A stretch of 64,000 nt of DNA from Salegentibacter sp. R32 (GTDB taxonomy: Bacteria; Bacteroidota; Bacteroidia; Flavobacteriales; Flavobacteriaceae), in assembly GCF_008692195.1 (NCBI RefSeq), contig NZ_RXOM01000060.1:62001-126000 (forward strand). Reading direction: 5' to 3'. How positions within the stretch are numbered: the first letter of the stretch is position 1; the number at the start of each line of letters is the position of its first letter. This document shows, one piece after another, positions 17,759-58,692 of this stretch. The notes beneath the pieces were generated by a model. It saw only the letters and a program-made list of their open reading frames with translations, had not been told where the DNA came from and made no database searches. The translations under genes and the position numbers were made by a program.

Positions 17759-18349
17759 ATGGAGAATAAATCTACTTACAGTATTATAGATACAACTGCA
17801 AATCCTGGTCCGTTAGGGCTTTTAGCTTTTGGGATGACAACCGTTTTATTAAATATTCACAATGCAGGATTTTATGAAATGAACTCTATGATTTTTGGGA
17901 TGGGTATATTTTATGGAGGTACTGCACAGGTTATTGCCGGAATATTAGAGGCCAAAAAAGGTAATACGTTTGGCTTAACAGCTTTTACTTCCTATGGTTT
18001 CTTTTGGCTTACCTTGGTAGGTTTATTAGTATTGCCAAAATTAGGTTGGATTCAATCCCCTTCAAATACAGCAATGATTTGTTATTTAGTTATGTGGGGA
18101 ATATTTACATTTTTATTGTTTTTTGGAACTCTCAAAATCAATAAAGCCCTTCAATTTGTATTTGCAACTTTAGCTTTACTCTTCTTTTTATTGGCACTTG
18201 GCGATGCCACCGGAAATAAATTATTAAAACAGATTACAGGCTTTGAAGGAATTATCTGTGGCGGTTCTGCAATTTATACAGGTGTAGGAACATTACTAAA
18301 TGAAGTTTACGGTAAAGAACTATTTCCGCTAGGAACAGTAAAAAAGTAA
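17759..18349 (+). CDS. Acetate uptake channel, AceTr/SatP (GPR1/FUN34/YaaH) family, copy 1
   Basis: A 196-residue inner-membrane protein with six hydrophobic helices. The family signature [23 protein letters not shown] lies at residues 15-37 (family NPAPLGL-type motif). [29 protein letters not shown] and FTSYGFFW follow. SatP-type proteins move acetate, and in some cases succinate, with protons. A second copy at 58102 inside the PUL differs at only about 25 of 196 positions. This copy stands alone between the guaB terminator and its own terminator, immediately upstream of the PUL, and may be constitutive or controlled by the palindrome at 17668. Confidence 0.92.
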   Translation: MENKSTYSIIDTTANPGPLGLLAFGMTTVLLNIHNAGFYEMNSMIFGMGIFYGGTAQVIAGILEAKKGNTFGLTAFTSYGFFWLTLVGLLVLPKLGWIQSPSNTAMICYLVMWGIFTFLLFFGTLKINKALQFVFATLALLFFLLALGDATGNKLLKQITGFEGIICGGSAIYTGVGTLLNEVYGKELFPLGTVKK

Positions 18350-18373
18350 AAGACGCTAAAAAGCGATTTAAAG

Positions 18374-18398
18374 GCTCTCGTTTAGAGAGCTTTTTTTT
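18374..18398 (+). terminator. Intrinsic terminator of acetate-channel copy 1
   Basis: GCTCTC (18374-18379) pairs with GAGAGC (18385-18390) across a five-base loop, followed by eight Ts. Confidence 0.85.
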
Positions 18399-18446
18399 AT
18401 GTTTTATATGAAAAAAGTTTCAAAATAATTTTATTAAAATATTTTG

Positions 18447-18460
18447 CTAAAACGTTTTAT
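18447..18460. promoter_or_regulatory. LacI-type operator, PUL unit 1
   Basis: CTAAAACGTTTTAT contains the perfect 12-base palindrome TAAAACGTTTTA at 18448-18459, preceded by TTTTG. It lies about 56 bases before the GTG start of the GH38-like gene. The same core recurs upstream of other PUL units, and a LacI-family gene lies at 27715. The operator assignment is inferred from this pattern. Confidence 0.75.
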
Positions 18461-18515: not shown

Positions 18516-21059
18516 GTGTTTTTTACTTCTAATCACTTTATAATTTTCATCCTATTTTTTACTGTTTGTTCGTTGAATCTTTCGGCGCAAGAAAAGGCAT
18601 ATTTTATTGATGGTTTTCACGGTGGAATTTGGGGACATTATCCTGAAAAATATACCTCTTATATTATTGAAGAATTAGAAGAGCACCCAGATTGGAAAAT
18701 TAACTTGGAAATTGAACCGGAAACTTGGGATAGGGTTCAAAAAATAGATGCAGAAGGTTATGAGAAATTCAAAATAATTTTTTCAGATCAATCTTCGAAA
18801 GGTAGAATTGAGTACGTAAATCCTAGTTACGGACAAAGTTACCTGTTCAATACTTCAGGGGAAAGCATTATTCGGCAATTTCATTATGGAATGAAAAAGT
18901 TGGAAGAACATTTTCCAAATGCGGTTTATAGCACTTATTCTTCAGAAGAGCCTTGTTTCACTAGCGCACTACCACAAATTTTAAAATCATTTGGTTTTCA
19001 ATACGCTTCTTTAAAAAATCCCAATACCTGTTGGGGAGGTTACATGAGAGCTCATGGCGGTGAATTAATTAATTGGACTGGGCCGGATGGTTCACAAATT
19101 ATCACTTCACCCCGTTATGAAATTGAAAAGCTAAAACCCGGTTCTACTTGGGAAACTATAGGAAATAGAAATTCTGTTGAATTTATTCAAGCAGCTTTCG
19201 ACTACGGAATTGAAAATCCTATAGGAATGTGTTTACAAGATGCCGTTTGGCGATGGGGACCTTGGTTGAAAGATGAATATTATAAGCCGAGTATTTACAC
19301 AACTTGGAGAAATTATTTTGAAAATATTGCTAATAAAAATAAACAAATTTCTACGTGGAAATTTAATCAAGAAGATGTGTTGGTGAGTCTGGTTTGGGGT
19401 TCACAAATTCTTCAGCAATTAGCGCAACGAGTTAGGACTGCAGAAAACAATATTGTACAGGCAGAAAAAGTGGCGGTGATAAATTATCTAGTAGAAAATA
19501 AACCTTATCCAAACGAGAATTTAGATGAAGCTTGGCGACAGCTTTTACTGGCGCAACATCACGATTGTTGGATTGTGCCCTACAATGGTAAACCCGGTAA
19601 TAATTGGGCAGACAAAGTAAAACGTTGGACGACTCATAGCAATAGAGTAAGTGATGAAGTTATTTCAACAAAAACCAATTCTTCAAAATTTATTAAAGTT
19701 TACAATACTTCCGGTTACACTAGAAATGATTTTGTGTATGTAGAAGTGCCTGAAGATTTTCAAGAGAGAAAAATTCAATTGAAAGATGAAAATAATCAAA
19801 TTTATTCAGCCGAATTCATTCAGAAAAAAGATAAACAATATTTAAACTTTAAAGCAGAAGTCCCTGCTTTTGGTTATCGGGTGTTTAGTATTGAAGAGAA
19901 AAAAAATCAAACAAAGTCTTCCATAAAAATAGACTACAATAGAAATTTAATAAAGGTGAATACTCCGCTTTATCAGTTAACATTTGATAAATCTAAAGGC
20001 GGAAGTATAACCAGTTTAATAGCAAAAGAACTTGAACAAAAAGAATTCGTAAATCAAGATTTAAAAGAAAAATTTAGCGGACTCCAAGCCAATTTTTACG
20101 AAGAGGATGGTTTTCAAACTACTTTTTCTGAAGAATCTGAATTTGAAGTGCTAGCTCAATCGCCGGAATTTCTCACCTTACAAATAAAAACACAGATTAA
20201 TCATATTCCGGTAGTCAAAAACGTTACAGTTTATAGATCAAATCCACGAATAGATTTCAATTTAAAAATAGATTGGAAAAAAAATATAGGGATAGGAGTA
20301 GACCCTGATGTAGAATTTAAAAGAAAATCAGTAAAAAAAGTATTTTATGATGATCGCGGCAAACTATTGACTGTTTTTCCGTTGAATTTAGAAGGGCAGC
20401 GTGTGTTTAAAAACGCTCCTTTTGATGCGATGGAAAGTCAATTGGAAAATACTTTTTATGATAGTTGGGACGGTATAAAGAATAATATGATAGTGAATTG
20501 GGTAGATGTAACCGATAAAGAGGAAAAATACGGTTTCGCACTATTTTCTGACCATACTACAACTTACACACACGGAAAAGATTTTCCGTTAGGCCTAACT
20601 ATTCAATATTCAGGAGCCGGTTTATGGGGAAGAAATTATACCATCGAAGGCCCTTCAGAAGTCAATTATTCCATTTTACCACACAAAGGAAATTGGCAAG
20701 AAGCACAAATTTGGAAACAGAATACCAATTGGGACGAACCTCTACGAGCTACATTTCTAAATGCAAAACCTTCCCAGACTTCCGAATCTTTATTGAAGTT
20801 GGAAAAAGAAGGGTGGCAACTTACTTCCGTAGAAAAAAGGGGAGAATCGCTTTATCTGAGAATTTTTAATGCTGAAGGGAATAGTGAACCCGGAAACATC
20901 AATTTCAACTTTAACCCCGGCCAAGTTTCATTAGTAGAACTAAACGGAGAAGAAAAAAACAAGTTGCAGGTTTTTTCAAAAAATCAACAATATCAACTAG
21001 AATTGGAAATGCCTCAATTTGGTTTCAGAACAATAAAATTAACAAACTATTCTAAATGA
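18516..21059 (+). CDS. GH38-like alpha-mannosidase family protein, atypical active site
   Basis: An 847-residue secreted protein with a GTG start and a signal peptide ending at SAQ (residue 25). The N-terminal barrel keeps GH38-like landmarks: the ESIIRQFHYGM segment (116-126), EEPCFTSALPQILKSFGF (144-161) at the place of the canonical DPFGHS..LP loop, and the helix-bundle motif AQHHDCWIV (His348-His349-Asp350). Residues about 390-847 are the beta-rich GH38 C-terminal part. The zinc site looks altered: the usual HxD is HGG (His35), and the nucleophile position reads Glu. It is first gene of PUL unit 1, overlapping the next gene by four bases (ATGA). Specificity is uncertain; it could be a divergent alpha-mannosidase or a related glycosidase. 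Confidence 0.75.
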   Translation: MFFTSNHFIIFILFFTVCSLNLSAQEKAYFIDGFHGGIWGHYPEKYTSYIIEELEEHPDWKINLEIEPETWDRVQKIDAEGYEKFKIIFSDQSSKGRIEYVNPSYGQSYLFNTSGESIIRQFHYGMKKLEEHFPNAVYSTYSSEEPCFTSALPQILKSFGFQYASLKNPNTCWGGYMRAHGGELINWTGPDGSQIITSPRYEIEKLKPGSTWETIGNRNSVEFIQAAFDYGIENPIGMCLQDAVWRWGPWLKDEYYKPSIYTTWRNYFENIANKNKQISTWKFNQEDVLVSLVWGSQILQQLAQRVRTAENNIVQAEKVAVINYLVENKPYPNENLDEAWRQLLLAQHHDCWIVPYNGKPGNNWADKVKRWTTHSNRVSDEVISTKTNSSKFIKVYNTSGYTRNDFVYVEVPEDFQERKIQLKDENNQIYSAEFIQKKDKQYLNFKAEVPAFGYRVFSIEEKKNQTKSSIKIDYNRNLIKVNTPLYQLTFDKSKGGSITSLIAKELEQKEFVNQDLKEKFSGLQANFYEEDGFQTTFSEESEFEVLAQSPEFLTLQIKTQINHIPVVKNVTVYRSNPRIDFNLKIDWKKNIGIGVDPDVEFKRKSVKKVFYDDRGKLLTVFPLNLEGQRVFKNAPFDAMESQLENTFYDSWDGIKNNMIVNWVDVTDKEEKYGFALFSDHTTTYTHGKDFPLGLTIQYSGAGLWGRNYTIEGPSEVNYSILPHKGNWQEAQIWKQNTNWDEPLRATFLNAKPSQTSESLLKLEKEGWQLTSVEKRGESLYLRIFNAEGNSEPGNINFNFNPGQVSLVELNGEEKNKLQVFSKNQQYQLELEMPQFGFRTIKLTNYSK

Positions 21060-22441
21060 TGAAAAAAATAATTTTAAGTCTTGCTCTCATCTTTTTTGTA
21101 TTGAATCATGCCAACGCTCAAGAATTAAAACCTTTTCAAGAAGGCGACCGCGTAGCTTTTTTAGGAAATAGTATTACCGAAGCAGGTTTTTATGAAAACT
21201 ACATTTGGTTATATTATATGACTCATTTCCCTGATCGGAAAATTAAAATAATGAATGCAGGTATTGGAGGTGATACTGCCGAAATGATGAATGCTCGTTT
21301 TGAAGGTGATGTATTGAAATTAGATCCCAACATTGTAGTGCTCACTTTTGGAATGAATGACAGCGGATATTTTGAATTCTGGAAAGATAATGCTGACAAA
21401 ACTGCCCAAGAACGAATAGCTAATTCATTAAAAAACTTTCAAGAACTTCAAGAAAAATTTAAAAATCATCCGGAAATTACTCCTGTAATTATGTCCGGAT
21501 CTCCTTTTGATGAGTCGGTTAAAATAGGCGCTAATAATTTTGATGGTAAAAAAGAAACCATTGAAAAAATAGTAGCTTTTCAGGAGAAAGCGGCAAAGAA
21601 AAATAATTGGGCGTATGTAGATTTATACCACCCTATGCTCAAAATAACCGAACGGGAACAAAGAAAAGATTCCACATATACCATTACAGGACCTGACCGT
21701 ATTCATCCGGGAAAACCGGGACATTTAGTGATGGCCTCTATATTCTTAAAAAATCAAGGATTGGCTGGAAAACCAGTGGCCAATGTACAAATTGATACCA
21801 GAAAAGAAAAAATTCAGCAATCAGTAAATGCTTCCACAAAACTTATAGAAGCTTCCAAAAAGCAGGTGAAATTTAATTATGAAGCCAAATCGCTTCCCTT
21901 TCCTATAGATTCGGTTTCCAGTACCTGGGGAAATCCTCACAAACAACACGAAGCCTTGGCGATTTATCCTTTCATGAAACAATTTAACCAAGAACTCTTA
22001 AAAGTTGAAAACCTAAAAAAAGGAAAGTATCAGCTAAAAATTGACGGAGAAAAGATAGCTCAATTCTCTGCAGATAGTTTAGCAAAAGGAATTAATCTCG
22101 CTTATCTTTCCAATACACCACAATACAAACAGGCAAAAAATGTGATGTATTTAAATGAGTTACGCGGTGAAATTGAAAATAAATTTAGACAATATGCTTG
22201 GATTCAATTTAATTTCATGAAAGATAAAGGTTTATTATTTGATGATTCGCAAGAAGCTTTGGATACAGCAAATGCTGTTAAAGAAGGTTTTCTGCCTAGT
22301 AAAATGGGGATTTATCAAACCTTTCGCTATAAAGAAATTCGAGAAATGTGGAAGGAGAATATGACAAAAGTAACGAATATGATTTATGAGATGAATCAAC
22401 CCAAAGATCACATTATCGAAATCAGTTTAATTGAAGATTAA
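21056..22441 (+). CDS. SGNH/GDSL-family esterase
   Basis: A 461-residue secreted hydrolase with signal peptide 1-22 (NANAQ). All four SGNH blocks are present: GNSIT with nucleophile Ser39, AGIGGDTAEMM, FGMNDS (oxyanion Asn), and DRIHPGKPGH with Asp214 and His217 as the rest of the triad. The catalytic domain covers about 28-245. The remaining 215 residues are a helix-rich extension I cannot name. In a glycan locus the likely role is removal of O-acetyl or another acyl group from sugars. Its ATG overlaps the upstream stop codon, so translation is probably coupled. Confidence 0.88.
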   Translation: MMKKIILSLALIFFVLNHANAQELKPFQEGDRVAFLGNSITEAGFYENYIWLYYMTHFPDRKIKIMNAGIGGDTAEMMNARFEGDVLKLDPNIVVLTFGMNDSGYFEFWKDNADKTAQERIANSLKNFQELQEKFKNHPEITPVIMSGSPFDESVKIGANNFDGKKETIEKIVAFQEKAAKKNNWAYVDLYHPMLKITEREQRKDSTYTITGPDRIHPGKPGHLVMASIFLKNQGLAGKPVANVQIDTRKEKIQQSVNASTKLIEASKKQVKFNYEAKSLPFPIDSVSSTWGNPHKQHEALAIYPFMKQFNQELLKVENLKKGKYQLKIDGEKIAQFSADSLAKGINLAYLSNTPQYKQAKNVMYLNELRGEIENKFRQYAWIQFNFMKDKGLLFDDSQEALDTANAVKEGFLPSKMGIYQTFRYKEIREMWKENMTKVTNMIYEMNQPKDHIIEISLIED

Positions 22442-22448
22442 TTTCAAC

Positions 22449-24785
22449 ATGAAACAACTTTCATTCTTACTTATACTATTCATAGTTCTTTCTTGCGGAA
22501 AGAAAAAAGAAGAAACTACTGCGGTCACCAAGAAAGAAAATACAAAAACTCCGGCAGATTATGTAAATCCAATGATTGGCGCTAGTACCAACGTGGGTGA
22601 CGCGGGAGTTTATCACGGTCTGGGAAAAACTTTCCCTGGAGCAGATACTCCTTATGGAATGGTTCAAGTAAGTCCCAATACCATCACCGGTGGCGATAAT
22701 GGTTCGGGTTACAGTTCGGAGCATACCAGTATTGAAGGTTTTGCATTTACACAAATGAGCGGCGTAGGTTGGTTTGGCGATTTAGGGAACTTTTTAGTGA
22801 TGCCCACCATCGGAAAGCTTCATACCAATAGTGGAAGTATAGAAAACCCTTCAAGCGGTTATCGTTCCAGTTATGATAAAAGTTCAGAAGAAGCTTCAGC
22901 GGGATATTATAAAGTTCATTTAAGTGATTACGATGTGACTGCAGAAGCTACCACAGCTCCTCATAGTGGAATGTTACGTTTTACCTTTCCAGAGTCAGAT
23001 TCAGCAAGAATTCAAATAGATTTAGCGCGAAGAGTAGGAGGAACTTCAACTCTACAATCGGTAAAAGTAGTGAACAATCATACGATTGAAGGTTGGATGA
23101 AATGTACACCGGAAGGCGGTGGTTGGGGAAATGGCGATGGAAAAGCCAATTATACGGTTCATTTTTATGCAGAATTCAGTAAGCCTTTTAAAAACTCCGG
23201 AATCTGGTCGGCCGCTATTCCTGATGATTGGTCCAGAAAGCGGGAATCTGTTACCAGTGAAAAATATCAAAATCAAATTGCTAATGCCGAAGTGCTTCCC
23301 AAAGCTTCAGAAAAAGAAGGAAAACACTTAGGTTTTTATGCAGAATTTGACACTGAAAAAGGAGAGCAAATTCTATTGAAATCTGGCATTTCATTCATCA
23401 GTATAGAAGGGGCCAAGAAAAATTTAAAAGCTGAAATAAACGATTTCAATTTTGATGAAATTCGAAAATCAGCCAAACAGTTATGGAACGAATCTTTAGG
23501 TGATATTGAAATAGCTGGAGGTTCTGAAGAAGAAAAAACTATTTTTTATACTGCATTGTACCACACTAAAATAGATCCCAGGATTTTTGAAGATGTCGAT
23601 GGGCAATATTTGGGTGGTGATGGGAAAGCCCATGCTTCAGAAGGTTTTACCAAGCGGACTATCTTTAGTGGTTGGGATGTTTTCCGTAGCCAGATGCCTT
23701 TGCAAACCATTATTAATCCTGAGTTAACGAATGATATGATTAATTCGTTAATCACTTTAGCAGAGCAAAAAGAAAAAGATTATTTTGAGCGTTGGGAATT
23801 GTTAAATGCTTATAGTGGTTGTATGTTAGGAAATCCGGCTGTCTCAGTTTTAGCCGATGCTTATGCCAAAGGAATTAAAGATTATGATGTAGAAAAAGCC
23901 TATGAACTCGCCAAAGGAAGCGTCAATAAATTTGGCAATCAGGAATTAGGTTACACACCCGGTAATCTTGGGATTTCTTATACGTTGGAATATGCGTATT
24001 TTGACTGGTGTTTTGCTCAATTAGCGGAACAGTTAAATAAATCTGACGACACAGAGGAATATCAAAAACGTTCTAAATATTATGTGAATATTTTTGATGA
24101 AGAAAAAGATTGGTTCCGACCCAAAGATGAAAATGGAAATTGGTTACCATGGCCAAAAGAAGGTCGATTAGAGCAATGGTATGGGAGTATGGAAAGTAAT
24201 GCGTACCAACAAGGCTGGTTTGTTCCGCAGGACATCGAAGGAATGGTTGATTTGATGGGCGGTAAAGAAAAAGTAATCGACGACTTGGTGAATTTCTTTG
24301 AAAAAGCTCCTGAAAATATGATGTGGAACAATTATTACAATCACGCTAACGAGCCGGTACATCACGTTCCCTTTTTATTCAACAGATTAGGAAAACCTTG
24401 GCTCACCCAAAAATACACACGAATGATTTGCAAAAGAGCCTATAAAAATTCGGTTGAAGGATTAGTGGGTAATGAAGATGTAGGGCAAATGTCTGCTTGG
24501 TATGTGTTGGCCGCTTCAGGAATTCATCCTATCGCCCCTGGAGAAACACGACTTGAAATTACAAGTCCGATGTTTGAAAAAATTACACTAAATGCCAATA
24601 AAGAAAATAGCTTCAGCATACAAGCAAATAATAATAGTAAGGAAAATATTTACATTCAAAGTGCTACATTAAATGGTCAACCTTATGAAAACTGCTATAT
24701 AGATTATCAAGATATTATGGCAGGAGGAGAACTTATTTTAGAAATGGGCGCCAAACCAAATAAGAATTGGGGTAATAACAATTAA
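22449..24785 (+). CDS. GH92 alpha-mannosidase, lipoprotein (copy 1)
   Basis: A 778-residue calcium-dependent exo-alpha-mannosidase family member. I use the ATG at 22449 rather than an in-frame TTG at 22431, because the signal then reads MKQLSFLLILFIVLSCGKKK with a clean lipobox. GH92 landmarks are YVNPMIGAS, FPGADTPYGMVQVSP, the acid-bearing MESNAYQQGWFVPQDIEGMVDLMGG (Glu582), NEPVHHVPFLFNRLGKPW, and the base motif GNEDVGQMSAWYVLAASGIHP (Asp677). The full NEPVHH loop is what I associate with alpha-1,2-type enzymes, but linkage specificity is not decidable here. Probably periplasmic or surface lipoprotein in PUL unit 1. Confidence 0.95.
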   Translation: MKQLSFLLILFIVLSCGKKKEETTAVTKKENTKTPADYVNPMIGASTNVGDAGVYHGLGKTFPGADTPYGMVQVSPNTITGGDNGSGYSSEHTSIEGFAFTQMSGVGWFGDLGNFLVMPTIGKLHTNSGSIENPSSGYRSSYDKSSEEASAGYYKVHLSDYDVTAEATTAPHSGMLRFTFPESDSARIQIDLARRVGGTSTLQSVKVVNNHTIEGWMKCTPEGGGWGNGDGKANYTVHFYAEFSKPFKNSGIWSAAIPDDWSRKRESVTSEKYQNQIANAEVLPKASEKEGKHLGFYAEFDTEKGEQILLKSGISFISIEGAKKNLKAEINDFNFDEIRKSAKQLWNESLGDIEIAGGSEEEKTIFYTALYHTKIDPRIFEDVDGQYLGGDGKAHASEGFTKRTIFSGWDVFRSQMPLQTIINPELTNDMINSLITLAEQKEKDYFERWELLNAYSGCMLGNPAVSVLADAYAKGIKDYDVEKAYELAKGSVNKFGNQELGYTPGNLGISYTLEYAYFDWCFAQLAEQLNKSDDTEEYQKRSKYYVNIFDEEKDWFRPKDENGNWLPWPKEGRLEQWYGSMESNAYQQGWFVPQDIEGMVDLMGGKEKVIDDLVNFFEKAPENMMWNNYYNHANEPVHHVPFLFNRLGKPWLTQKYTRMICKRAYKNSVEGLVGNEDVGQMSAWYVLAASGIHPIAPGETRLEITSPMFEKITLNANKENSFSIQANNNSKENIYIQSATLNGQPYENCYIDYQDIMAGGELILEMGAKPNKNWGNNN

Positions 24786-24786: not shown

Positions 24787-26727
24787 ATGAAATATTATTT
24801 ATTTTTAATAGTAGCTATCATCCATTACATAGGAAATAGCCAAGAGTTCAAACTCTCCAGTCCAAATAAGGAAATAGAAATAACCCTGCAAACAGGAGAT
24901 AAATTATCTTTTTCAATAAAAAGTCAAGGCGAAAAAATTATAAAACACGCAGAAATAGGTATAAACATCTCTAAAAAGAGTATTCGGTATAATCCAAAAT
25001 CTACAAAAACAAAGTATATAAGCAATAAAATAGAACCCGTAGTTTCATTACAAAATGCAATTATTGAAAATAATTATAATGAATTACGAGTAAATTTTAA
25101 TAAAGGAATTGCTTTAGAATTACGTGCATATAATGAAGGGTTTAGCTACAGATTTCTACTATCAAAAAAAGATTCTATTGATGTTATAGATGAAAAATTA
25201 ACGCTTGAATTTGAAAATCCTACTTGGGTAAGTTGGGCCAACGCAGAAAGTTTTAAAAATGATTATCAAGTGGTATATCAATCAGACTCTATAGTAAACA
25301 TCGATGAAGGAAAAATGAGTACCCTTCCTTTACTATTTAAAGAGAGCGAATATAAAATTTTATTTTCTGAAGCCAATTTGTACGATTACCCCGCGATGTT
25401 TCTCAAAAAAGAAAGTCAAAAGTTAGTAGCAAATTTTCCTAAAGTTCCCTTAGAACACGAACCGGATGGAGATAGAAGTGAAAAAATCTTAAAAGAAGCT
25501 AATTATATAGCTACTATTTCAGGTGATAGGACTTTGCCTTGGCGTTTTATGGTGATTAGTAAAGACGATAAAGACATTGCAGCCAATGAAATGGTTACAA
25601 AGCTTTCTGAACAACCTGAAAATAAAAAGCAATTCTCTTGGGTTAAACCAGGGCAAGTTACTTGGGAATGGTGGCACAATGCAGAAGTGTATGGAGTAGA
25701 TTTTAAATCAGGTTATAACCAAAAAACCTATGAGTATTATATTGATTTTGCTTCAGAGAATCAGATACCTTATATAATTATGGATGAAGGCTGGGCAAAA
25801 TCAACTTTAAATCCATTTGAGCCCAATCCAACGATTAATTTACCTCAGCTCATCAATTACGGAAAAAAGAAGAATGTGAAAATCATCCTTTGGTTTACTT
25901 GGCTTGCCGTAGAACAGAATTTTGATGTATTTGAAACCTTAGAAGATTGGGGAATTGCAGGAATGAAAATTGATTTTATGGATAGGAGTGACCAATGGAT
26001 GGTTAATTACTATGAACGTGTGGCAAAGGAAGCGGCCAAACATCATTTAATTGTAGATTTTCACGGTTCTTTTAAACCGGCAGGCCTTGAAATAAAATAT
26101 CCTAATGTACTATCCAATGAAGGAGTAATGGGAATGGAAGCGAATATTCACGGAGGAGTAGCGACACCTGACAATAATATGTATTTACCTTTTGTAAGAA
26201 ATGCTGTAGGACCTATGGATTACACCCCGGGAGCTATGTATTCTGCTCATCCAGAAGATTATCGTCCCAATTGGACCAATACGATGAGTATAGGCACGAG
26301 AGCTCATCAAATAGCGATGTATGTCGTTTTTAAAAGTGGTTTGCAAATGCTGGCAGATAATCCAGTTAATTATTTGCGGGAAAAAGAATGCCTGAACTTT
26401 ATAACACAAGTTCCTGTAACTTGGGATGAAACAAAAATTTTAAAGGCAAAATCTCCAGAATACATAGTAATTGCCAAAAGAAAAGATGATACTTGGTTTA
26501 TCGGAGGAATGACTAATAGTCAAGAACGCGCTTTTGATTTTAAATTAGATTTTTTAGATGTAAATAAGGAATATGCTATGACAATTATTAAAGATGGAAT
26601 TAATGCAGATGTTCAAGCCATGGATTATAAAAAATCTACTTTTCCTGTATCGAATACAAGTGATATTAAAATTTTTATGGTTAAGAATGGAGGCTATGTA
26701 GCTAAAATAGAACCTCAATCTAAATAA
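24787..26727 (+). CDS. GH97 glycoside hydrolase (retaining-type signature)
   Basis: A 646-residue secreted enzyme with a short signal peptide (to about NSQ, residue 19). GH97 architecture is clear: an N-terminal beta-supersandwich (about 20-280; LSSPNKEIEITLQTGDKLSFSI), a barrel (WVKPGQVTWEWWHNAEVYGVDFKSG onward), and a short C-terminal sheet domain. MKIDFMDRSDQWMVNYYERVAKEAA places an aspartate, Asp396, where retaining GH97 alpha-galactosidase-type members have their nucleophile. Inverting SusB-type alpha-glucosidases lack it. This suggests alpha-galactosidase or a related retaining activity. It follows the GH92 gene after one base in unit 1. Confidence 0.9.
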   Translation: MKYYLFLIVAIIHYIGNSQEFKLSSPNKEIEITLQTGDKLSFSIKSQGEKIIKHAEIGINISKKSIRYNPKSTKTKYISNKIEPVVSLQNAIIENNYNELRVNFNKGIALELRAYNEGFSYRFLLSKKDSIDVIDEKLTLEFENPTWVSWANAESFKNDYQVVYQSDSIVNIDEGKMSTLPLLFKESEYKILFSEANLYDYPAMFLKKESQKLVANFPKVPLEHEPDGDRSEKILKEANYIATISGDRTLPWRFMVISKDDKDIAANEMVTKLSEQPENKKQFSWVKPGQVTWEWWHNAEVYGVDFKSGYNQKTYEYYIDFASENQIPYIIMDEGWAKSTLNPFEPNPTINLPQLINYGKKKNVKIILWFTWLAVEQNFDVFETLEDWGIAGMKIDFMDRSDQWMVNYYERVAKEAAKHHLIVDFHGSFKPAGLEIKYPNVLSNEGVMGMEANIHGGVATPDNNMYLPFVRNAVGPMDYTPGAMYSAHPEDYRPNWTNTMSIGTRAHQIAMYVVFKSGLQMLADNPVNYLREKECLNFITQVPVTWDETKILKAKSPEYIVIAKRKDDTWFIGGMTNSQERAFDFKLDFLDVNKEYAMTIIKDGINADVQAMDYKKSTFPVSNTSDIKIFMVKNGGYVAKIEPQSK

Positions 26728-45878: not shown

Positions 45879-45890
45879 AATTTTAGAATT

Positions 45891-47609: not shown

Positions 47610-47643
47610 ATAAAATTGGTTTAAAAGATTTTAGATAATAGTT

Positions 47644-50691: not shown

Positions 50692-50700
50692 AAAATAATC

Positions 50701-52980
50701 ATGATTAAACATTCCATTACATATCTATTTCTATTTAGTTTCATTTTTATCAATGCCCAACAACAAAACTTAGTTGATTATGTCAATACCCGACAAGGCA
50801 CGTTTTCAACACCAGGATTAAGTTACGGAAATACCTATCCAACTGTGGCCATGCCATTTCCTGTACATTCCTTTTCAGCACAAACTGGAAAAAACGGTGA
50901 TGGCTGGAAGTATCAATATCAAGCTGAAACCATTCGGGGATTTCAACAAGTTCATCAATGCAGTCCATGGGTAAACGATTATGCAACATTTTCTTTAATG
51001 CCGATTTTAGGAGATTTAGTAGTGAATGAAGATGAAAGAGCCACAGTATTTCAACACAAAAACGAAACCGCGAAACCCTACTATTATCAGGTGAAATTGG
51101 ATAACGGAATTAATACTGAAATTTCTCCCGTCACCCGTGGCGGACATATGAAGTTCAGCTTTCCAAAAGGAGATAAAGCTTATTTGGTGTTTGATGGTTA
51201 TACCAAACAAAGCAGTGTGAAAATTCATCCAAAAGAACGAAAAATTACCGGATGGGTTCACAACGGACTTTTAATCCCCGATAACTTCAAAGCTTATTTT
51301 GAAATTACTTTTAGTAAACCTTTTAAAAGTTACGGTACTTGGGAGAACAGGGAAAATACCATACAGCAAAATCAAACTTCAGCTGAAGGGGATGGAAAAG
51401 GTTTTTATTTAGAGTTTAAAGAAGGTACCAGTGTTGAGGTGAAAATCGCTTCCTCTTACATAAGTCAAGAACAAGCCGCTTTAACAATGGAGCAGGAGCT
51501 TAAAAAACATCGAAAATTTAAACATACCAAAGAAGCAGCAAAAGAGGCGTGGAACAAATTATTTAATCGAGTAGTTGTTGAAACCGAATCTGAAAAGGAT
51601 AAAGAAACTTTTTATTCCTGTTTGTTCAGGGCAAATCTCTTTTCCCATCGTTTCTTTGAAATAGATGAAGAAGGAAATCCTTACTATTTTAGTCCATATG
51701 ACGGAAAAATCCACGATGGCTATATGTACACCGATAATGGATTTTGGGATACTTTTAGAGCGCAATTTCCATTAAGCAATATTCTGCACCCCACGATGCA
51801 AGGCAGGTATATGCAGTCTTTATTAGATGCTCAAGAACAAAGCGGTTTTTTACCTACATGGTCTTGTCCCGGTATGTCAGGAATTATGATTGGTAATCAC
51901 GCCATTTCCCTATTGGCAGATGCACACGCCAAAGGGATAAAAGGTTTCGATGCTCAGCAAGCCCTGAATGCATATTACCATGAAATTACCAATAAAGGTC
52001 CTTGGGGAGGCTCTAACGGAAGGGAGGCATACGATGCTTGGTTTCAGTTAGGTTATATCCCAACGAAAGAAGTTGGTGAAAGTGCTGCCAAAACTTTAGA
52101 ATATGCCTACGATGATTGGTGTGGTTATTATATGGCAAAATCTTTAGGGGATGAACATTATACAAATGTTTTTGGTCGCCAAATGTATAACTATAAAAAT
52201 ATCTATGATGCTTCAGAGGGCTTTATGAGAGGTAAAAAACGAAGCGGAGAATGGGAAGAGAATTTTAATCCATTAGCTTGGGGTGATCCATTTACCGAGG
52301 CCAACTCTTGGCAATATAGCTGGTCGGTTTTTCATGATGTAGAAGGACTTGTTAATTTGATGGGTGGAAAAGAAAAATTCATCAATAAGCTGGATACATT
52401 TTTTAATATGGAATCTACTTACGACGTAGGTAGTTACGGTCACGTAATTCACGAAATGCGGGAAATGGAAATTGCCGATATGGGCCAATATGCACACGGA
52501 AATCAACCCGTACAACATGTAGCTTATTTATACAATTTCGTAGGACAACCATGGAAATCTCAGGCCAAAACCCGAGAAATAATGTCTAAACTATACAATG
52601 CTACAGAAAAAGGTTATCCCGGAGATGAAGACCAGGGAGGTATGTCTTCTTGGTATATTTTAAGCTCTTTAGGTTTTTACAGCGTTTGTCCGGGAACTGA
52701 TCAATATGTGTTGGGAAGCCCAATGTTTGAGAAATCCTCTATAGATTTAGAAAACGGAAACACATTCACGGTAATTGCCAAGAATAATAGTGCTGAAAAT
52801 GTTTACATACAATCAGCTAAATTAAATGGAAAAACTTATGATAAAAATTACATCACTTACGGAGATATTAGCAATGGTGGAACTTTAGAATTAGTGATGG
52901 GAAATACACCTAATAAAAGTCGAGGGATTTCTGAAGAAAGTAAACCGTATTCAGTTTCAATAAAAGTGAAAAATGAATAA
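50701..52980 (+). CDS. GH92 alpha-mannosidase (copy 2)
   Basis: A 759-residue secreted enzyme with signal peptide 1-19 (FINAQ). GH92 landmarks are LVDYVNTRQGTFSTPGLSYGNTYPTVAMPF, PFTEANSWQYSWSVFHDVEGLVNLMGG with acid Glu533, and GDEDQGGMSSWYILSSLGFYS with base Asp644. The two-domain layout and length are normal. The loop read NEPVHH in copy 1 is NQPVQH here, so the subsite and hence linkage preference probably differ. The usual opening GxxxGNTxPGA..P is also changed to SYGNTYPTVAMPF. It has no lipobox, so it is likely periplasmic. Position in unit 4 directly after the SusC gene supports a role in trimming imported oligosaccharide. Confidence 0.93.
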   Translation: MIKHSITYLFLFSFIFINAQQQNLVDYVNTRQGTFSTPGLSYGNTYPTVAMPFPVHSFSAQTGKNGDGWKYQYQAETIRGFQQVHQCSPWVNDYATFSLMPILGDLVVNEDERATVFQHKNETAKPYYYQVKLDNGINTEISPVTRGGHMKFSFPKGDKAYLVFDGYTKQSSVKIHPKERKITGWVHNGLLIPDNFKAYFEITFSKPFKSYGTWENRENTIQQNQTSAEGDGKGFYLEFKEGTSVEVKIASSYISQEQAALTMEQELKKHRKFKHTKEAAKEAWNKLFNRVVVETESEKDKETFYSCLFRANLFSHRFFEIDEEGNPYYFSPYDGKIHDGYMYTDNGFWDTFRAQFPLSNILHPTMQGRYMQSLLDAQEQSGFLPTWSCPGMSGIMIGNHAISLLADAHAKGIKGFDAQQALNAYYHEITNKGPWGGSNGREAYDAWFQLGYIPTKEVGESAAKTLEYAYDDWCGYYMAKSLGDEHYTNVFGRQMYNYKNIYDASEGFMRGKKRSGEWEENFNPLAWGDPFTEANSWQYSWSVFHDVEGLVNLMGGKEKFINKLDTFFNMESTYDVGSYGHVIHEMREMEIADMGQYAHGNQPVQHVAYLYNFVGQPWKSQAKTREIMSKLYNATEKGYPGDEDQGGMSSWYILSSLGFYSVCPGTDQYVLGSPMFEKSSIDLENGNTFTVIAKNNSAENVYIQSAKLNGKTYDKNYITYGDISNGGTLELVMGNTPNKSRGISEESKPYSVSIKVKNE

Positions 52981-52983
52981 GTT

Positions 52984-54576
52984 TTGAATATAAAAATTTA
53001 TACATACCTGAAAATTATCCTTATACTTTGTTTAGTGGGATTCCATTTTTCCTGTCAAAACTCTAAACAAAAACAAGAGAACAAAGAAAATCGCCCCAAC
53101 ATAATTTATATTATGGCAGACGATTTAACTACTCAAGCTATTACCGCATATAATGATCGTTTTAAGGGTATTGCAGATACCCCAAATATAGATAGGCTTG
53201 CCAAAGAAGGAATGATATTTCAAGATGTATTGTGTACCAATGCTATTTGCGGTCCAAGTAGAGCTGCAATTTTAACCGGTGATTATAGTCACAAAAACGG
53301 ATATTACAAAAATACTAAAGGAGGAAAATTTGATGCCTCTCAATGGACGTTTCCTCAGGCGTTTCAAAAATCCGGATATCAAACCAGTCTCTTCGGGAAG
53401 TGGCATTTAGGAAGTGAACCCAAAGGATTTGATACTTATAAATATCATGCTGCAGGAGGCCAGCAGGGACTGTATTGGAATCCAATTTATAATGAAAACG
53501 GTAAGGAGGTTGAAGAAAAAGGCTATGCTACCAATTTAACCACAGATTTTGCTCTCAATTGGTTAGATAGTAACAAAAATAGTGGTAACCCCTTTTTAAT
53601 GCTTTTGCAATATAAAGCGCCTCATCGGCCCTGGCAACCTGATAAAAAGTATGAAAATTTATGGGAAAGTTTGGAATTGCCATATCCTTCTACTTTTAAC
53701 GACACTTATGAAGGAAGAGAAAAAACAGCCGGGAACACAGAAATGACAATGGATTTTTTCAGCCGAAACGATATGAAAATGAAAGCCCCCGACAGTATCG
53801 AAAAAAAAGGAATGTGGGAGTTTTATGGAGCAATGAGAAATCAAGTAGTAATTCCTGAAGGGATGAATACTGAAGAAGCCAGAAAATGGCGATACCAAAC
53901 TTTCATTAAGGCCTATTTAGCTACTATTAAATCTGTAGATGATAATATAGGAAGGGTCTTAGATTATTTAGATAAAAACAATCTAACAGAAAATACGATG
54001 GTTGTTTTAACATCAGATCAAGGCTTTTACCTTGGAGATCATGGTTTTTTTGATAAAAGATTTATTTATGAAGAATCACTTAGGATGCCATTTATTGTAA
54101 GGTATCCCAATAAAGTTAAAGCCGGTTCAGAAAATACAGACATTATAGGGAATATAGATTTTGCTTCAACATTTCTTGAGGTGGCCAATATAAAAACAAA
54201 GCACTCTACACAAGGGAAAAGTTTTAAACCTGTACTCTTCGGAGAAAAACTTAAAAATTGGAGAGATGGACTTTATTACCATTACTATGAATTTCCTTTT
54301 TGGCATCACGTTCAGCCACATTATGGCATAAGAACAGATCGTTACACCCTAGCTCATTTTTATTACAATATAGATGAATGGGAACTTTACGATAATCAAA
54401 AAGATCCGGAGCAATTAAATAACATAATTGATAACGCAAAATATTCAGGAACTGTCAAAAAACTTAAAGAAAAATTAAACGATTTAATGAAAAAATATGA
54501 GGACGATAAAAGTCTAGAAGATTTTCGTGAGATAAGTGATAAAGATTTTGGCCGTTTGTCAAAAAATATGAAATAA
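52984..54576 (+). CDS. Type I sulfatase (S1 family) lipoprotein
   Basis: A 530-residue lipoprotein beginning at a TTG codon three bases after the upstream stop. The signal ends in FHFSC (Cys24). Sulfatase features are NIIYIMADDL (metal aspartates), AICGPSRAAILTG with Cys89 as the formylglycine precursor (C-x-P-S-R form), FGKWHLGS, APHRPWQPD, and VVLTSDQGFYLGDHGFFDKRFIYEESLRMPFIVRYP. The C-terminal HYGIRTDRYTLAHFYYNIDEWELYD is typical of S1 enzymes acting on sugar sulfates; GlcNAc-6-sulfatase-like members come to mind but I cannot fix the subfamily. It implies that the target glycan carries sulfate. Maturation would need an anSME/FGE enzyme encoded elsewhere. Confidence 0.92.
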   Translation: MNIKIYTYLKIILILCLVGFHFSCQNSKQKQENKENRPNIIYIMADDLTTQAITAYNDRFKGIADTPNIDRLAKEGMIFQDVLCTNAICGPSRAAILTGDYSHKNGYYKNTKGGKFDASQWTFPQAFQKSGYQTSLFGKWHLGSEPKGFDTYKYHAAGGQQGLYWNPIYNENGKEVEEKGYATNLTTDFALNWLDSNKNSGNPFLMLLQYKAPHRPWQPDKKYENLWESLELPYPSTFNDTYEGREKTAGNTEMTMDFFSRNDMKMKAPDSIEKKGMWEFYGAMRNQVVIPEGMNTEEARKWRYQTFIKAYLATIKSVDDNIGRVLDYLDKNNLTENTMVVLTSDQGFYLGDHGFFDKRFIYEESLRMPFIVRYPNKVKAGSENTDIIGNIDFASTFLEVANIKTKHSTQGKSFKPVLFGEKLKNWRDGLYYHYYEFPFWHHVQPHYGIRTDRYTLAHFYYNIDEWELYDNQKDPEQLNNIIDNAKYSGTVKKLKEKLNDLMKKYEDDKSLEDFREISDKDFGRLSKNMK

Positions 54577-54610
54577 AAAATCTAACTATTAATTATTCTA
54601 AAAGCTAAGA

Positions 54611-56896
54611 ATGACTTTTTTACAAAAATCTAATACAAATTTTGCTAAAAGCTTTTACCAAAAAGCGATACTTTTAATTTCAAGTTTTTCCATATTGGCA
54701 GTTGCTACTTCTTGCGATGGAAATAAAAAAGAAAAAGACGAAAATATTCCCAAAGAAAATCAAACAGAAGAAGTGAATTATGCCGAAATGGTAAATGCAG
54801 AAATTGGTAATAAAGGTAAAGGCGTAAGCGAAACCGAATTACAATTTGAAGCTGGATTCACTTTTCCCGGAGCAACTTACCCTTTTGGAATGGTTCAATT
54901 CACGCAAACTTTTTTTCAACCGGATAAAGGTTTTGTAATTAATCAATTAAGTGGAGCTGGTTGTCCAAACATGGGAAACCTTCCAACTATGGCCTTACCT
55001 GGGGAGTTAAAAGAGTCGCCTAACGATATGAAAGGTATAAATCCTTCCAACGAAAATATCAATGCAGTAGCAGGACATTACCAGACAAAATTGAGTACTG
55101 ATATTCTAGTAGATTTAACAGCTACTAAACGTACGGGAATGGCCAAATTCAGCTTTCCCAAGAATAATAAAACAGGAACAGTAGTCATTGGTACCGGTAT
55201 AAACGCCAATAAAATGACCAATGCTGAAGTAACTATTACTGGTACCTCTAGTTTTGAAGGTCATGCCGATGGTGGTTCATTTTGCGGTTCAGCAACGCCT
55301 TATATCGTTTATTTTGTAGGAGAATTTGATACAAAATCTTCAACCTCTGGAACGTGGACAGGTGAAGATTTTAAAGAAGCTTCTAAAAACGCTTCAGGTG
55401 AAAACTCAGGAGCTTACTTCACTTTCGATGTATCTTCAGGAAAACCCGTTCAGTATAAATTCGGGATTTCTTATGTGTCTTTAGAAAATGCACGGGAAAA
55501 CTTAAAAGCAGAAAATAGTAACTTCAATTTTGAATCCACCAAAAACGAAGCAATGCAAGCCTGGAACAGCTATCTGTCTAAAATTAAAGTAAAAGGCGGT
55601 AGCAAAGATCAGCAAGTTCAGTTTTATACACATTTGTATAACTCATTAAAGCATCCCAGTATTTTTAGCGATGTAAATGGTGAATATTTAGGTTCAGACA
55701 GCAAAGTATATAAAGCGGAAGGATTCGATTATTACACTGCTTTTAGTAACTGGGATACGTATAGAACACAAACCCAATTAATTGCATTATTGGCACCAGA
55801 AGTTACTTCAGATGTCGTAAAATCACATTTAATGTTTGCAGAGCGTTCCGGTGGTGGTCTTCCAAGATGGGTATTGGCCAATTATGCCACCGGAATTATG
55901 CAAGGCGACCCAAGTTCAGCAGTAATTGCCAATGCTTATGCTTTTGGAGCACAAGATTTTGATAAAGAAAAAGCCTTAAAAATTATGCGCCGTGGAGCAG
56001 AAGAACCCGGTCTTAAAACGCAAGAAGTGACTACTAGAACTTTCTTAGAGCAATATTTAGAAAAAGGATATATCTATGACCACATGGGAGCTTCCATTGC
56101 TTTAGAATTTACAACCGCAGATTTTGCCATTGGTCAGTTTGCCAAGCAAGCCTTAGGAAATAATAAAGTAGCTAACCAATATTTAAAACGATCACAATAT
56201 TGGAAGAATTTGTATAACCCGAAAACCAAATGGTTAAACTCTAAAAATGAAGACGGCTCGTGGAAAGGTAAAAATGACGATTGGCGTGAAGCTACCTATG
56301 CCAATTATCATTGGATGGTTCCTTATAATTTGGGAAAACTTATCGATACTATGGGTGGTAAAAAACCTGCAGAACAGCGATTAGATTCATTGTTCGTTAA
56401 AATTGATGCTACTTATTATCAAGATTGGTTTGCCGCAGGTAACGAACCCGATTTTCAAGTGCCTTGGGTTTATAACTGGACGGGATCTCCGTATAAAACC
56501 CAAGCGATTGTTCGCAGAATTTTAGAAGAAAAATATCAAAATGCAGCCAGTGGTTTACCTGGTAACGAAGATTTAGGCTCTATGGGAGCTTGGTATGTGT
56601 TTGCTAATATTGGTTTATATCCAATGATCCCGGGACTTGGAGGTTTCGCTATCAATAGTCCGACTTTTTCAGATATCCAAATTGAATTAGGTAATGGGAA
56701 TACTATTCATATTACCGGAGGTTCACCAGAGAAGAAATATATTGAATCACTTCAGGTGAATGGCAAAGAGTGGAATAACACTTGGATTTCTTTAGATAAA
56801 TTGGAAGAAGCCGAAAACCTAAAATTTGAACTTTCTGAAACACCAAACAAAGAATGGGGTACAACAACGCCACCACCATCGTATGATTCAAAATAA
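54611..56896 (+). CDS. GH92 alpha-mannosidase, lipoprotein (copy 3, divergent)
   Basis: A 761-residue lipoprotein with a rather long n-region before the lipobox at VATSC (Cys35). GH92 landmarks are YAEMVNAEIGNKGKG, FTFPGATYPFGMVQFTQ, REATYANYHWMVPYNLGKLIDTMGG with Glu560, and GNEDLGSMGAWYVFANIGLYP with Asp654. The substrate loop reads NEPDFQVPWVYNW, unlike copies 1 and 2, so a different linkage or an accessory specificity is likely. Identity with the other two copies looks low outside the catalytic motifs, which argues for old paralogues rather than recent duplication. Encoded in unit 4 between sulfatase and GH130. Confidence 0.93.
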   Translation: MTFLQKSNTNFAKSFYQKAILLISSFSILAVATSCDGNKKEKDENIPKENQTEEVNYAEMVNAEIGNKGKGVSETELQFEAGFTFPGATYPFGMVQFTQTFFQPDKGFVINQLSGAGCPNMGNLPTMALPGELKESPNDMKGINPSNENINAVAGHYQTKLSTDILVDLTATKRTGMAKFSFPKNNKTGTVVIGTGINANKMTNAEVTITGTSSFEGHADGGSFCGSATPYIVYFVGEFDTKSSTSGTWTGEDFKEASKNASGENSGAYFTFDVSSGKPVQYKFGISYVSLENARENLKAENSNFNFESTKNEAMQAWNSYLSKIKVKGGSKDQQVQFYTHLYNSLKHPSIFSDVNGEYLGSDSKVYKAEGFDYYTAFSNWDTYRTQTQLIALLAPEVTSDVVKSHLMFAERSGGGLPRWVLANYATGIMQGDPSSAVIANAYAFGAQDFDKEKALKIMRRGAEEPGLKTQEVTTRTFLEQYLEKGYIYDHMGASIALEFTTADFAIGQFAKQALGNNKVANQYLKRSQYWKNLYNPKTKWLNSKNEDGSWKGKNDDWREATYANYHWMVPYNLGKLIDTMGGKKPAEQRLDSLFVKIDATYYQDWFAAGNEPDFQVPWVYNWTGSPYKTQAIVRRILEEKYQNAASGLPGNEDLGSMGAWYVFANIGLYPMIPGLGGFAINSPTFSDIQIELGNGNTIHITGGSPEKKYIESLQVNGKEWNNTWISLDKLEEAENLKFELSETPNKEWGTTTPPPSYDSK

Positions 56897-56903
56897 AAAG
56901 AAA

Positions 56904-58091
56904 ATGAAATTTAGAACAATATATGCCGGATTGTTTCTCGCTTCAACTATAGGCTTAATTTCCTGTGGAGAAAAGAAAAAACAAACCGAAACTGAAAAAG
57001 TTAAGGAAGTTTATACGGAAGAAAAAGACACTTCAAAAATTAATAAAGATTGGGCAATTACCGGTTTTACTCGTCCTGAAGGTATAAATCCTGTTTTATC
57101 ACCTATGGAAGAATCTACTTTTTTTTCAGAAATGAATCAAAAAAAGATTGCTTGGGAATCTAATGATGTTTTTAATCCCGCTGCGACGGTAATGGGAGAT
57201 AGTATTTACGTTCTCTACCGTGCTGAAGATAAATCGGGTAAAGGAATTGGTGAGCGTACTTCCAGAATTGGTTTAGCATCATCAGCGAATGGTTTCGATA
57301 TGAAAAGACGAACTACTCCGGTTTTATATCCTAAAAATGATAACCAGAAACAATATGAATGGCCGGGAGGATGTGAAGACCCACGTGTGGCGATGACTGA
57401 GGATGGAACTTACATAATGCTCTACACTCAATGGAATAAAGATGTACCGAGATTAGCGGTTGCTACTTCCACAAATCTAATCGATTGGGAGAAACACGGT
57501 CCTGCTTTTGAAGAAGCTTACGACGGTAAATATTTAGACCGCTTTAGCAAATCTGCATCAGTAGTTACCAAAATTGACAACGGAAAACAGGTAATTACAA
57601 AAGTCAACGGAAAATATTTGATGTATTGGGGAGAAAAAAATGTATTCGCAGCCACTTCAGAAAATTTAAAGGACTGGAAACCTGTGGAAGAAAATGGCAA
57701 ATTAAAAATATTAATGTCACCAAGAAAAGGTTTTTTTGACAGTCAGTTAACCGAATGTGGACCGCCGGCCATTTTAACTGAAAATGGAATTGTTGTGATG
57801 TATAACGGTAAAAACCTGAAAGGTGAAGGAGGCGATAAAAATTATACGGCCAATACCTATTGTGCCGGACAGGTTTTATTCGATAAAGAAAATCCAACTC
57901 AAGTTATAGACCGTTTAGATGAACCCTTTTTAGTGCCAACCGCTTCTTTTGAAAAAAGCGGACAATATCCTGCTGGAACTGTTTTTATCGAAGGTTTGGT
58001 TTGGTTTAAAAGTAAGTGGTATTTGTACTACGGTTGTGCCGATAGTAGAGTAGGAGTAGTAGTTTCAGAAGATAAAATAAAGAAATACTAA
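56904..58091 (+). CDS. GH130 family protein, lipoprotein (mannoside hydrolase or phosphorylase)
   Basis: A 395-residue lipoprotein. The ATG at 56904 is chosen because it starts the signal [21 protein letters not shown] (Cys21) and follows the GH92 stop; the frame is open back to 56826 inside that gene. The five-bladed propeller shows [24 protein letters not shown], the GH130 hallmark [23 protein letters not shown] (Glu158, Asp159), [19 protein letters not shown] and [25 protein letters not shown]130 enzymes act on beta-mannosides. Cytoplasmic ones are phosphorylases, whereas exported members are beta-1,2-mannosidase-type hydrolases in Bacteroides mannan systems. The lipoprotein signal therefore favours hydrolysis here. 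Confidence 0.9.
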
Positions 58092-58101
58092 TTCAATAAG
58101 T

Positions 58102-58692
58102 ATGGAAAACAATCAACACTATAGCATTACAGATACGACTGCCAATCCGGGACCATTAGGCTTATTAGCTTTTGGGATGACCACAGTCTTGTTAAATATC
58201 CACAATGCCGGTTTTTTTGAAATGAATTCCATGATTTTCGGAATGGGGATTTTCTATGGCGGTTCTGCTCAGGTTATTGCCGGGATTTTAGAAGCTAAAA
58301 AAGGAAATACCTTTGGTTTAACTGCTTTTACTTCTTATGGTTTTTTCTGGTTAAGCTTAGTCGGTCTTTTAGTAATGCCAAAATTAGGTTGGATTGAAGC
58401 TCCTTCCAATACCGCCATGATTTGTTATTTGGTAATGTGGGGCATTTTTACGTTTCTTTTATTCTTCGGTACCTTAAAAGTAAATAGAGCTTTACAAGTG
58501 GTTTTTGCAACCTTAACCTTACTTTTTTTCTTATTGGCATTAGGGGATATTACTGGCAACTCAACTATCAAGACTGTTACTGGTGTTGAAGGGATTTTAT
58601 GTGGTGGTTCTGCTATTTATACTGGCGTAGGAACCTTATTAAATGAAGTTTACGGAAGAGAAGTTTTCCCGTTAGGAACAATTAAAAAATAA
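58102..58692 (+). CDS. Acetate uptake channel, AceTr/SatP family, copy 2 (inside the PUL)
   Basis: A 196-residue, six-helix inner-membrane protein. It carries [23 protein letters not shown] and [29 protein letters not shown], and differs from copy 1 (17759) at about 25 positions, mainly at the N-terminus and in the loop near residues 150-165. The DNA differs at many silent sites, so the duplication is not recent and the protein is under strong selection. It is embedded between GH130 (10 bases) and a propeller lipoprotein gene (14 bases), hence induced with the PUL. It would import the acetate freed by the locus esterases. Confidence 0.93.

Follow-up and report, generated by a model that had tools for sequence, protein, structure and literature searches.

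A predicted acetate channel gene within an alpha-mannan-type polysaccharide utilization locus of Mesonia, and its possible part in recovering acetate freed by esterases

Locus organization

The stretch of DNA analysed here (64,000 nt, referred to as the window) belongs to the 4.08-Mb genome of a non-pathogenic marine bacterium counted in the genus Mesonia, and Pfam scans of its proteins revealed an alpha-mannan-type polysaccharide utilization locus (PUL) with four esterases and SatP-B, a gene of the AceTr family of acetate channels. SusC/SusD homologues occur twice in the locus, with GH92, GH130 and GH31 genes on the same strand. An earlier note on this DNA had proposed that acetate stripped from the glycan is itself captured as carbon; SatP-B probably serves such a capture, and its paralogue beside the locus, SatP-A, appears to work apart from it.

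SatP-B (58102–58692, + strand, as are all genes given below for the window) was matched by PF01184 at 139.9 bits (cut-off 25) and by NF038013, the NCBIfam AceTr_1 "acetate uptake transporter" equivalog model, at 275.7 bits (cut-off 50), and was aligned with the solved SatP structures 5ys3 (1e-67, 181 residues, nearly full length) and 5zug (2.4e-65). The gene lies 10 nt from GH130 upstream and 14 nt from a lipoprotein gene downstream. The SYGFFW motif is present, as are the residues F24, Y79 and L138, which we take to be the constriction positions of the solved structure; hydrophobic stretches overlap and give no clean count of six transmembrane helices. The signature reads NPGPLGLL, and was scored as present with one substitution relative to NPAPLGL and L where M or S is usual, NPAPLGL(M/S) being given as the AceTr signature at the first transmembrane segment in the available text of PMC13316224.

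The four deacylases named in the earlier note were borne out by family matches: a GDSL/SGNH esterase (21056–22441; PF13472; 7br2, 1.3e-126), a CE1-like esterase (26738–27577; PF00756; best solved relatives called ferulic acid esterases), and two SASA-type carbohydrate esterases, SASA1 (34770/34785–36719; PF03629; 9h4u, 7.6e-135) and SASA2 (36735–38213; PF03629; 9h4u, 1.2e-78). All four have signal-like N-termini, judged by eye and hydropathy, and their products are therefore expected outside the cytoplasmic membrane. The motifs GNSI (GDSL), GLSMG (CE1-like) and GQSN (both SASA proteins) are presumably the catalytic serine motifs.

On one strand from 18516, the PUL opens with a GH38 alpha-mannosidase (18516–21059; PF01074), followed by the GDSL esterase, GH92 a (22431–24785), GH97 (24787–26727; closest solved structure the alpha-galactosidase 3a24), the CE1-like esterase, a LacI-family regulator (27715–28752), an F5/8C and DUF5005 protein with a Por secretion tail (28910–31537), GH2 (31737–34763; closest solved structure an exo-beta-D-glucosaminidase, then a beta-mannosidase), SASA1 and SASA2. 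The order continues with SusD-like 1 (38451–40214), DUF4961, DUF5004 and DUF4961 genes (40252–42663), SusC-like 1 (42714–45878; weak Pfam matches to Plug and beta-barrel), SusD-like 2 (45891–47609), SusC-like 2 (47644–50691), GH92 b (50701–52980; closest solved structure 2wvx, a putative alpha-1,2-mannosidase), a sulfatase (52984–54576), GH92 c (54611–56896), GH130 (56826–58091), SatP-B, a RicinB-lectin/DUF4185 protein with a lipoprotein-like N-terminus (58707–60611) and GH31 (60626–62821). A ROK sugar kinase (62881–64000) extends past the window end and is followed by a sugar porter (L105:2043–3368). The GH130 protein is a BT3780-type beta-1,2-mannosidase (NF058598, 616.2 bits, cut-off 550; 3qc2 and 5a7v) with a lipoprotein-like N-terminus; its listed TTG start overlaps GH92 c by 71 nt (56826–56904), and an ATG at codon 27 gives the lipoprotein-like N-terminus and no overlap. 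The DUF5004 gene, between SusD1 and SusC1, is flanked by the two DUF4961 genes, one of which has a Por secretion tail.

Three GH92 genes, GH38 and a BT3780-type GH130 point to a predicted substrate that is either an alpha-mannan bearing beta-1,2-mannose or a glycoprotein glycan similar to it. GH76 and GH99 endo-alpha-mannanases, which mark yeast-type alpha-mannan PULs, were not found among the scanned window proteins, to which this search was confined. No Rfam family scored over threshold in the window, where a structured RNA had been considered. Downstream of the PUL (L105:6274–20000 and L106), uronate-catabolism-like genes were seen by eye, as was another SusCD-like locus whose enzymes may act on pectin.

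Operators and regulation

A palindromic LacI-type site near GCTAAAACGTTTTAG was located by motif search before GH38 (18446–18460), before the F5/8C gene (28847–28861, with a weaker second site at 28880–28894), before GH2-SASA1-SASA2 (31683–31697), as a pair starting at 38389 and 38423, 34 nt apart, before SusD1 and the run containing SatP-B (38389–38437), and before ROK (62843–62857). With up to 3 mismatches, 21 matches were counted on both strands, where the palindrome counts twice and four weak places lie within genes, against 4.41 expected, and none of 100 shuffles had as many. The six window sites themselves served to build a weight matrix; sites scoring at least 19 with it were intergenic in 6/6 cases in the window, where open reading frames (ORFs) cover 95.5% of the sequence, and in 5/5 cases in the related genome UWMA-0090, in which SusD1 is likewise preceded by a pair, 35 nt apart. 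The exact 12-mer TAAAACGTTTTA has four copies in the genome, three of them within the window; the fourth (contig C64) lies inside an ORF that is transporter-like by eye, and was taken as chance. The LacI protein encoded at 27715 is the inferred binder of these sites.

In the same-strand run from SusD1 to SatP-B, which lies behind the operator pair, no gap exceeds 55 nt, and the only terminator-like matches on the + strand in 38100–58000 (52631 and 56573) fall within genes. The earlier note had placed the channel in the main operon, between GH130 and a surface lipoprotein gene, which holds for SatP-B; the esterases sit in two other runs, GH38-GDSL-GH92-GH97-CE1 and GH2-SASA-SASA, with the same kind of operator as the SatP-B run, so that any coupling would operate through the regulon.

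Paralogue beside the locus

SatP-A (17759–18349) lies beside the inosine monophosphate dehydrogenase gene (IMPDH), was matched by PF01184 at 127.9 bits (cut-off 25) and by NF038013 at 270.9 bits (cut-off 50), and has 87% identity with SatP-B; a search of the whole genome for PF01184 genes found these two and no third. A terminator-like hairpin follows it on the + strand (18370–18394, terminator scan), and no PUL operator was found upstream in 17531–17758, nor upstream of SatP-A in Mesonia aestuariivivens. The upstream gap contains a CG-centred palindrome, TTAACGTTAA, at 17673, which is unlike the PUL operator. SatP-A had been considered as a member of the PUL, and this was rejected given the terminator-like site on its 3' side, the lack of an operator on its 5' side, and its presence at the same place without a PUL in M. 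aestuariivivens. SatP-A is directly upstream of the locus and belongs to the AceTr family, as the earlier note had it, and is apparently a transcription unit of its own, outside the PUL.

Taking a common operator or transcription unit as the mark of control with the PUL, judged from sequence only, this was found for SatP-B and not for SatP-A. With operator sites before SusD1, none before SatP-A, and a terminator-like hairpin after SatP-A, the PUL regulon plausibly includes SatP-B and leaves out SatP-A.

Comparison with other Mesonia genomes

AceTr genes were carried, this genome included, by 7/199 genomes of the family, 14/395 of the phylum and 3/16 of the genus. The three Mesonia carriers share a frame of genes: in M. 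aestuariivivens, IMPDH, SatP-A and an MFS gene are consecutive, with no PUL between; in UWMA-0090, a PUL follows IMPDH, its SatP-B flanked by GH130 and the lipoprotein gene, and the same MFS gene comes next, with no SatP-A there; and in the window genome, IMPDH, SatP-A and the PUL with SatP-B precede the MFS gene common to all three. A SusC1 probe marked the PUL in 2 of the 16 Mesonia genomes, both with SatP-B, and gave only a 29% match in a third. SatP-B and its counterpart in the same slot of UWMA-0090 (90% identity) form one of the pairs compared below, and the counterpart is the single AceTr gene found in UWMA-0090 (genome 90% complete).

Comparison of the PULs covered these two loci only. 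The UWMA-0090 PUL has kept SatP-B and every one of the four esterase kinds, GDSL being present twice; GH97, GH2 and the sulfatase had no match in 60 kb of UWMA-0090, and a GH43 gene stands in place of the F5/8C gene. A tree of 87 AceTr proteins placed the four sequences from Mesonia in one group (100/100), split into window SatP-A with M. aestuariivivens (99/75) and window SatP-B with UWMA-0090 (100/91); A and B are therefore separate old lineages within the sampled Mesonia group. We propose that these paralogues separated either inside the Mesonia lineage or between Mesonia and a close relative outside the sample. Both pairs are under purifying selection (dN/dS 0.042 for SatP-A and 0.040 for SatP-B, rough values since dS exceeds 1).

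Between the window and UWMA-0090, dS was 0.17–0.34 in five upstream genes, 0.75 in IMPDH and 1.02–4.04 in 19 PUL genes (ROK gave no value), with 1.45 for SatP-B; beyond the PUL it was 2.20 and 1.78 in MFS genes, 1.14 in an oxidoreductase, and 0.66 and 0.46 in the next two genes. These values show that the divergence of SatP-B matches that of its PUL neighbours. A divergent block wider than the PUL thus seems to adjoin a near-identical upstream flank, and either the PUL block or the flank may have been exchanged. The edge of recombination appears near or inside IMPDH (window 9440–62821 compared with UWMA-0090).

Survey of AceTr neighbourhoods

For the survey, 80 of 439 confirmed AceTr relatives were kept, and 98 loci were collected, of which L198 was left out (its AceTr gene was not found by the script, the match spans half of the family only, and BLAST missed it), leaving 97: two from Mesonia and 95 others, with one genome present twice. 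Runs were defined as genes on the same strand with gaps of up to 150 nt, later widened to 200 nt, and the survey detects only homologues of window proteins, SusC/SusD and AcsA (acetyl-CoA synthetase).

None of the 95 non-Mesonia AceTr runs (gaps up to 150 nt) contained a SusC/SusD homologue, and six loci had one elsewhere in the stretch; embedding of AceTr in a PUL is rare, and the statement in the earlier note that such channels are not standard PUL parts stands as far as tested. The setting met most often was AceTr with an AHSA1 protein and a histidine phosphatase that by eye is gpmA-like; it occurs chiefly in Mucilaginibacter, and was counted in 48/83 loci by clustering and in 39/95 by a stricter string test.

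Three loci from metagenome-assembled genomes (MAGs) had AceTr beside carbohydrate esterases, as a survey suggested in the earlier note might show, none of them with SusC/SusD in the run. In L035 (1286–6429; Mucilaginibacter sp. RYN_333 MAG), SASA, CE15, a PF01522 polysaccharide deacetylase (CE4) and AceTr lie on one strand with gaps of 20, 73 and 80 nt, the CE15 protein matching 6hsw at 2.7e-88. In L053 (593–4985; Mucilaginibacter sp. LS_ISSM_2_bin.109 MAG), the order is CE15, AcsA and AceTr, with gaps of 89 and 164 nt. In L036 (9977–12330; Ferruginibacter sp. MAG), AceTr is followed after 95 nt by a membrane protein and, 12 nt further on, by a CE1-like esterase with 54% identity to that of the window. 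L035 and L053 may be of one origin (AceTr 86% and CE15 72% identity), and besides Mesonia there are therefore two or three origins. AcsA directly follows AceTr in L037, L074 and L076. Further on in L053, on the other strand, one gene has weak, under-cut-off similarity to arabinofuranosidase. A GH29-type alpha-L-fucosidase gene lies 5' of AceTr on the same strand in L028 (8059–10585, gap 218 nt) and, as judged by clustering, in L030 (8087–10585, gap 190 nt).

Enrichment was calculated on 94 non-Mesonia loci (L189 left out as from the same genome as L076; 16 of the 94 shorter than 15 kb). At gap limits of 100, 150 and 200 nt, esterases of the kinds in the window made up 2/72, 2/91 and 2/134 genes in AceTr runs and 0/1440, 0/1421 and 0/1378 elsewhere (p = 0.002, 0.004 and 0.008), and AcsA made up 3/72, 3/91 and 4/134 in the runs and 1/1440, 1/1421 and 0/1378 outside (p = 4e-4, 8e-4 and 6e-5). 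A variant with CE15 and CE4 added (5/134 and 0/1378, p = 5e-6) was not relied on, being partly circular, since two of the five matches are queries themselves.

A search for an orthologous PUL in other Flavobacteriaceae was not fruitful: SusC1 matched 8/397 genomes including this one, the other seven at 30–32% identity, and no AceTr match was found in the stretches around SusC1 in those seven. The DUF4185 lipoprotein was found in 5/395 genomes including this one, beside a SusC/SusD pair in one of the four others; no AceTr was found in the stretches around those four genes, and two of these genomes (G325 and G511) carry AceTr on another contig. On plasmids, AceTr was present in 171/72,556 records, 141 of them from Salmonella, which is uninformative for this question.

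Acetate metabolism

Two AcsA genes scored over cut-off in the genome, and malate synthase adjoins isocitrate lyase, which gives the glyoxylate shunt. The second AcsA gene (L144:8632–10452, contig C17) ends just past PKTRSGKIMRRIL, about 30 residues before the end of the other copy. No match to acetate kinase was found in the genome (9/14 control genomes were positive), and no ADP-forming acetyl-CoA synthetase scored over cut-off, with two weak matches, one of 14 controls passing, in a search for acetate-forming routes that covered these two enzymes and not CoA transferase, pyruvate oxidase or NagA. Import fits better than export as the predicted direction, because AcsA and the glyoxylate shunt are present and acetate kinase is not.

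Interpretation

We consider it probable, with moderate confidence, that SatP-B forms an acetate channel of the inner membrane and was recruited into a PUL of alpha-mannan type to recover acetate, or a similar small acid, freed by the exported esterases. For SatP-B, the capture proposed in the earlier note agrees with the common operators, the same slot in a second species, the acetate-assimilating gene set, and runs of AceTr with esterases or AcsA elsewhere; for SatP-A it does not, the earlier note having held that expression independent of the PUL would speak against capture, which is what the sequence suggests for this gene. A glycan signal would first relieve the LacI-type regulator; the exported SASA, GDSL and CE1-like esterases, whose families are clear and whose substrate is presumed, would then deacylate glycan fragments outside the cytoplasmic membrane, while in parallel GH92, GH38 and GH130 would cleave the sugar. 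SatP-B, from the operator-controlled run, would import the freed acetate, a direction taken from characterised relatives, and acetyl-CoA synthetase and the glyoxylate shunt, whose genes are present, would assimilate it. SatP-A, beside IMPDH, would work independently of the PUL.

Several points weigh against this capture. The esterases are assigned by family, the acyl specificity of all four is putative, and the CE1-like esterase is closest to ferulic acid esterases. The esterases have an operator in common with SatP-B and not a run, and the 12-mer with one mismatch has no genome-wide excess (65 places against 113 for a reversed control). The arrangement is present in only two species, and a SatP protein needs no PUL, because M. 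aestuariivivens keeps one without it. In the survey, most other loci had no esterase or AcsA in the AceTr run, the esterase matches were known before the enrichment test, and genes of a run are not independent. Genes further on in L036 are glycolytic-looking by eye, and the best NCBIfam matches of its CE1-like protein are S-formylglutathione hydrolase and feruloyl esterase, all under cut-off; the CE4 protein of L035 has TYDD, without a strict H[ST]xxH. CE15 enzymes are glucuronoyl esterases, for which release of acetate is not required. No report of acetylation was found for alpha-mannan of this type, on which the available text of three mannan-PUL papers (PMC13063451, PMC6298971 and PMC9213526) is silent.

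The strongest competing explanation, which we regard as unlikely, is that SatP-B is a duplicate of SatP-A that landed in the PUL by chance and was kept as a mildly useful channel unconnected with the esterases. In its favour, the copies form sister groups within Mesonia in the tree, SatP-A adjoins the PUL, and the arrangement is limited to two species; yet SatP-B has the same slot in two PULs separated by dS values above 1, is under purifying selection behind PUL operators and is kept as the only AceTr gene found in UWMA-0090, and other loci have AceTr beside esterases or AcsA.

Less probable still is a valve, through which SatP-B would export acetate or dissipate cytoplasmic acid arising from fast growth on glycan or from N-acetyl sugars. 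In its favour, a channel might in principle conduct in both directions, the matches of the ROK kinase include weak, under-cut-off ones to N-acetylhexosamine kinases, and the GH2 protein is closest to exo-beta-D-glucosaminidase; against this stand the missing matches to acetate kinase and, over cut-off, to ADP-forming acetyl-CoA synthetase, and acetate translocation by Citrobacter koseri SatP is stated as unidirectional in the available text of PMC8471396. Least probable is that SatP-B carries a small carboxylate other than acetate, be it succinate, lactate, propionate or a different acyl group freed by the esterases: Escherichia coli SatP also takes up lactate and succinate, according to the available text of PMC13316224, and the esterase specificity is putative, but F24, Y79, L138 and SYGFFW are as in the family and both proteins pass the acetate equivalog model, with which other acids are still compatible.

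To the capture of acetate by SatP-B, a wider proposal can be added, held tentatively and with slightly less than even confidence: in Bacteroidota, exported carbohydrate deacylases may repeatedly have been coupled to an acetate channel, in some cases along with acetyl-CoA synthetase, so that acetyl decorations themselves serve as a carbon source. Instances of such a side-group capture, which would have arisen more than once, would be the Mesonia PUL, the two Mucilaginibacter runs and the Ferruginibacter run.

Relation to known systems

SatP-B resembles SatP (YaaH) of E. coli and C. koseri in its AceTr family membership over near full length, its signature with one substitution and its constriction residues, and differs in lying inside a PUL behind LacI-type operators and in having NPGPLGL instead of NPAPLGL. 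The locus shares three GH92 genes, GH38, a BT3780-type beta-1,2-mannosidase and two SusCD pairs with the alpha-mannan PULs of Flavobacteriia and Bacteroides, and differs in lacking GH76 and GH99 among the scanned window proteins, in combining a sulfatase with GH38, and in carrying four esterases as well as an acetate channel. In the available text of a North Sea paper (PMC6298971), PULs with GH92 are often rich in sulfatases, whereas those with GH76, GH125 or GH38 are devoid of them. The mannan locus of Bacteroides cellulosilyticus likewise has carbohydrate esterases (BcCE7 and BcCE25) made with it, but it acts on beta-mannan and has an MFS transporter and SusCD, with no acetate channel mentioned in the available text of PMC13276840. 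In a pneumococcal study, esterases release acetate from mucin, and the better growth is explained by access to sugar in the available text (PMC5352144). Among the open-access titles and openings of abstracts listed, with preprints and most subscription papers outside the search, no description was found of an acetate channel in a PUL or of a co-encoded channel that captures acetate from deacetylation.

Models of PULs count sugars, and the removed acetyl is usually regarded as waste, or as acetate left to neighbours. If the capture proposed for SatP-B is true, acetyl decorations would be part of the meal for degraders with a dedicated, co-regulated channel, such bacteria would cross-feed less acetate than predicted, and the pairing of AceTr with esterases would mark acetylated substrates.

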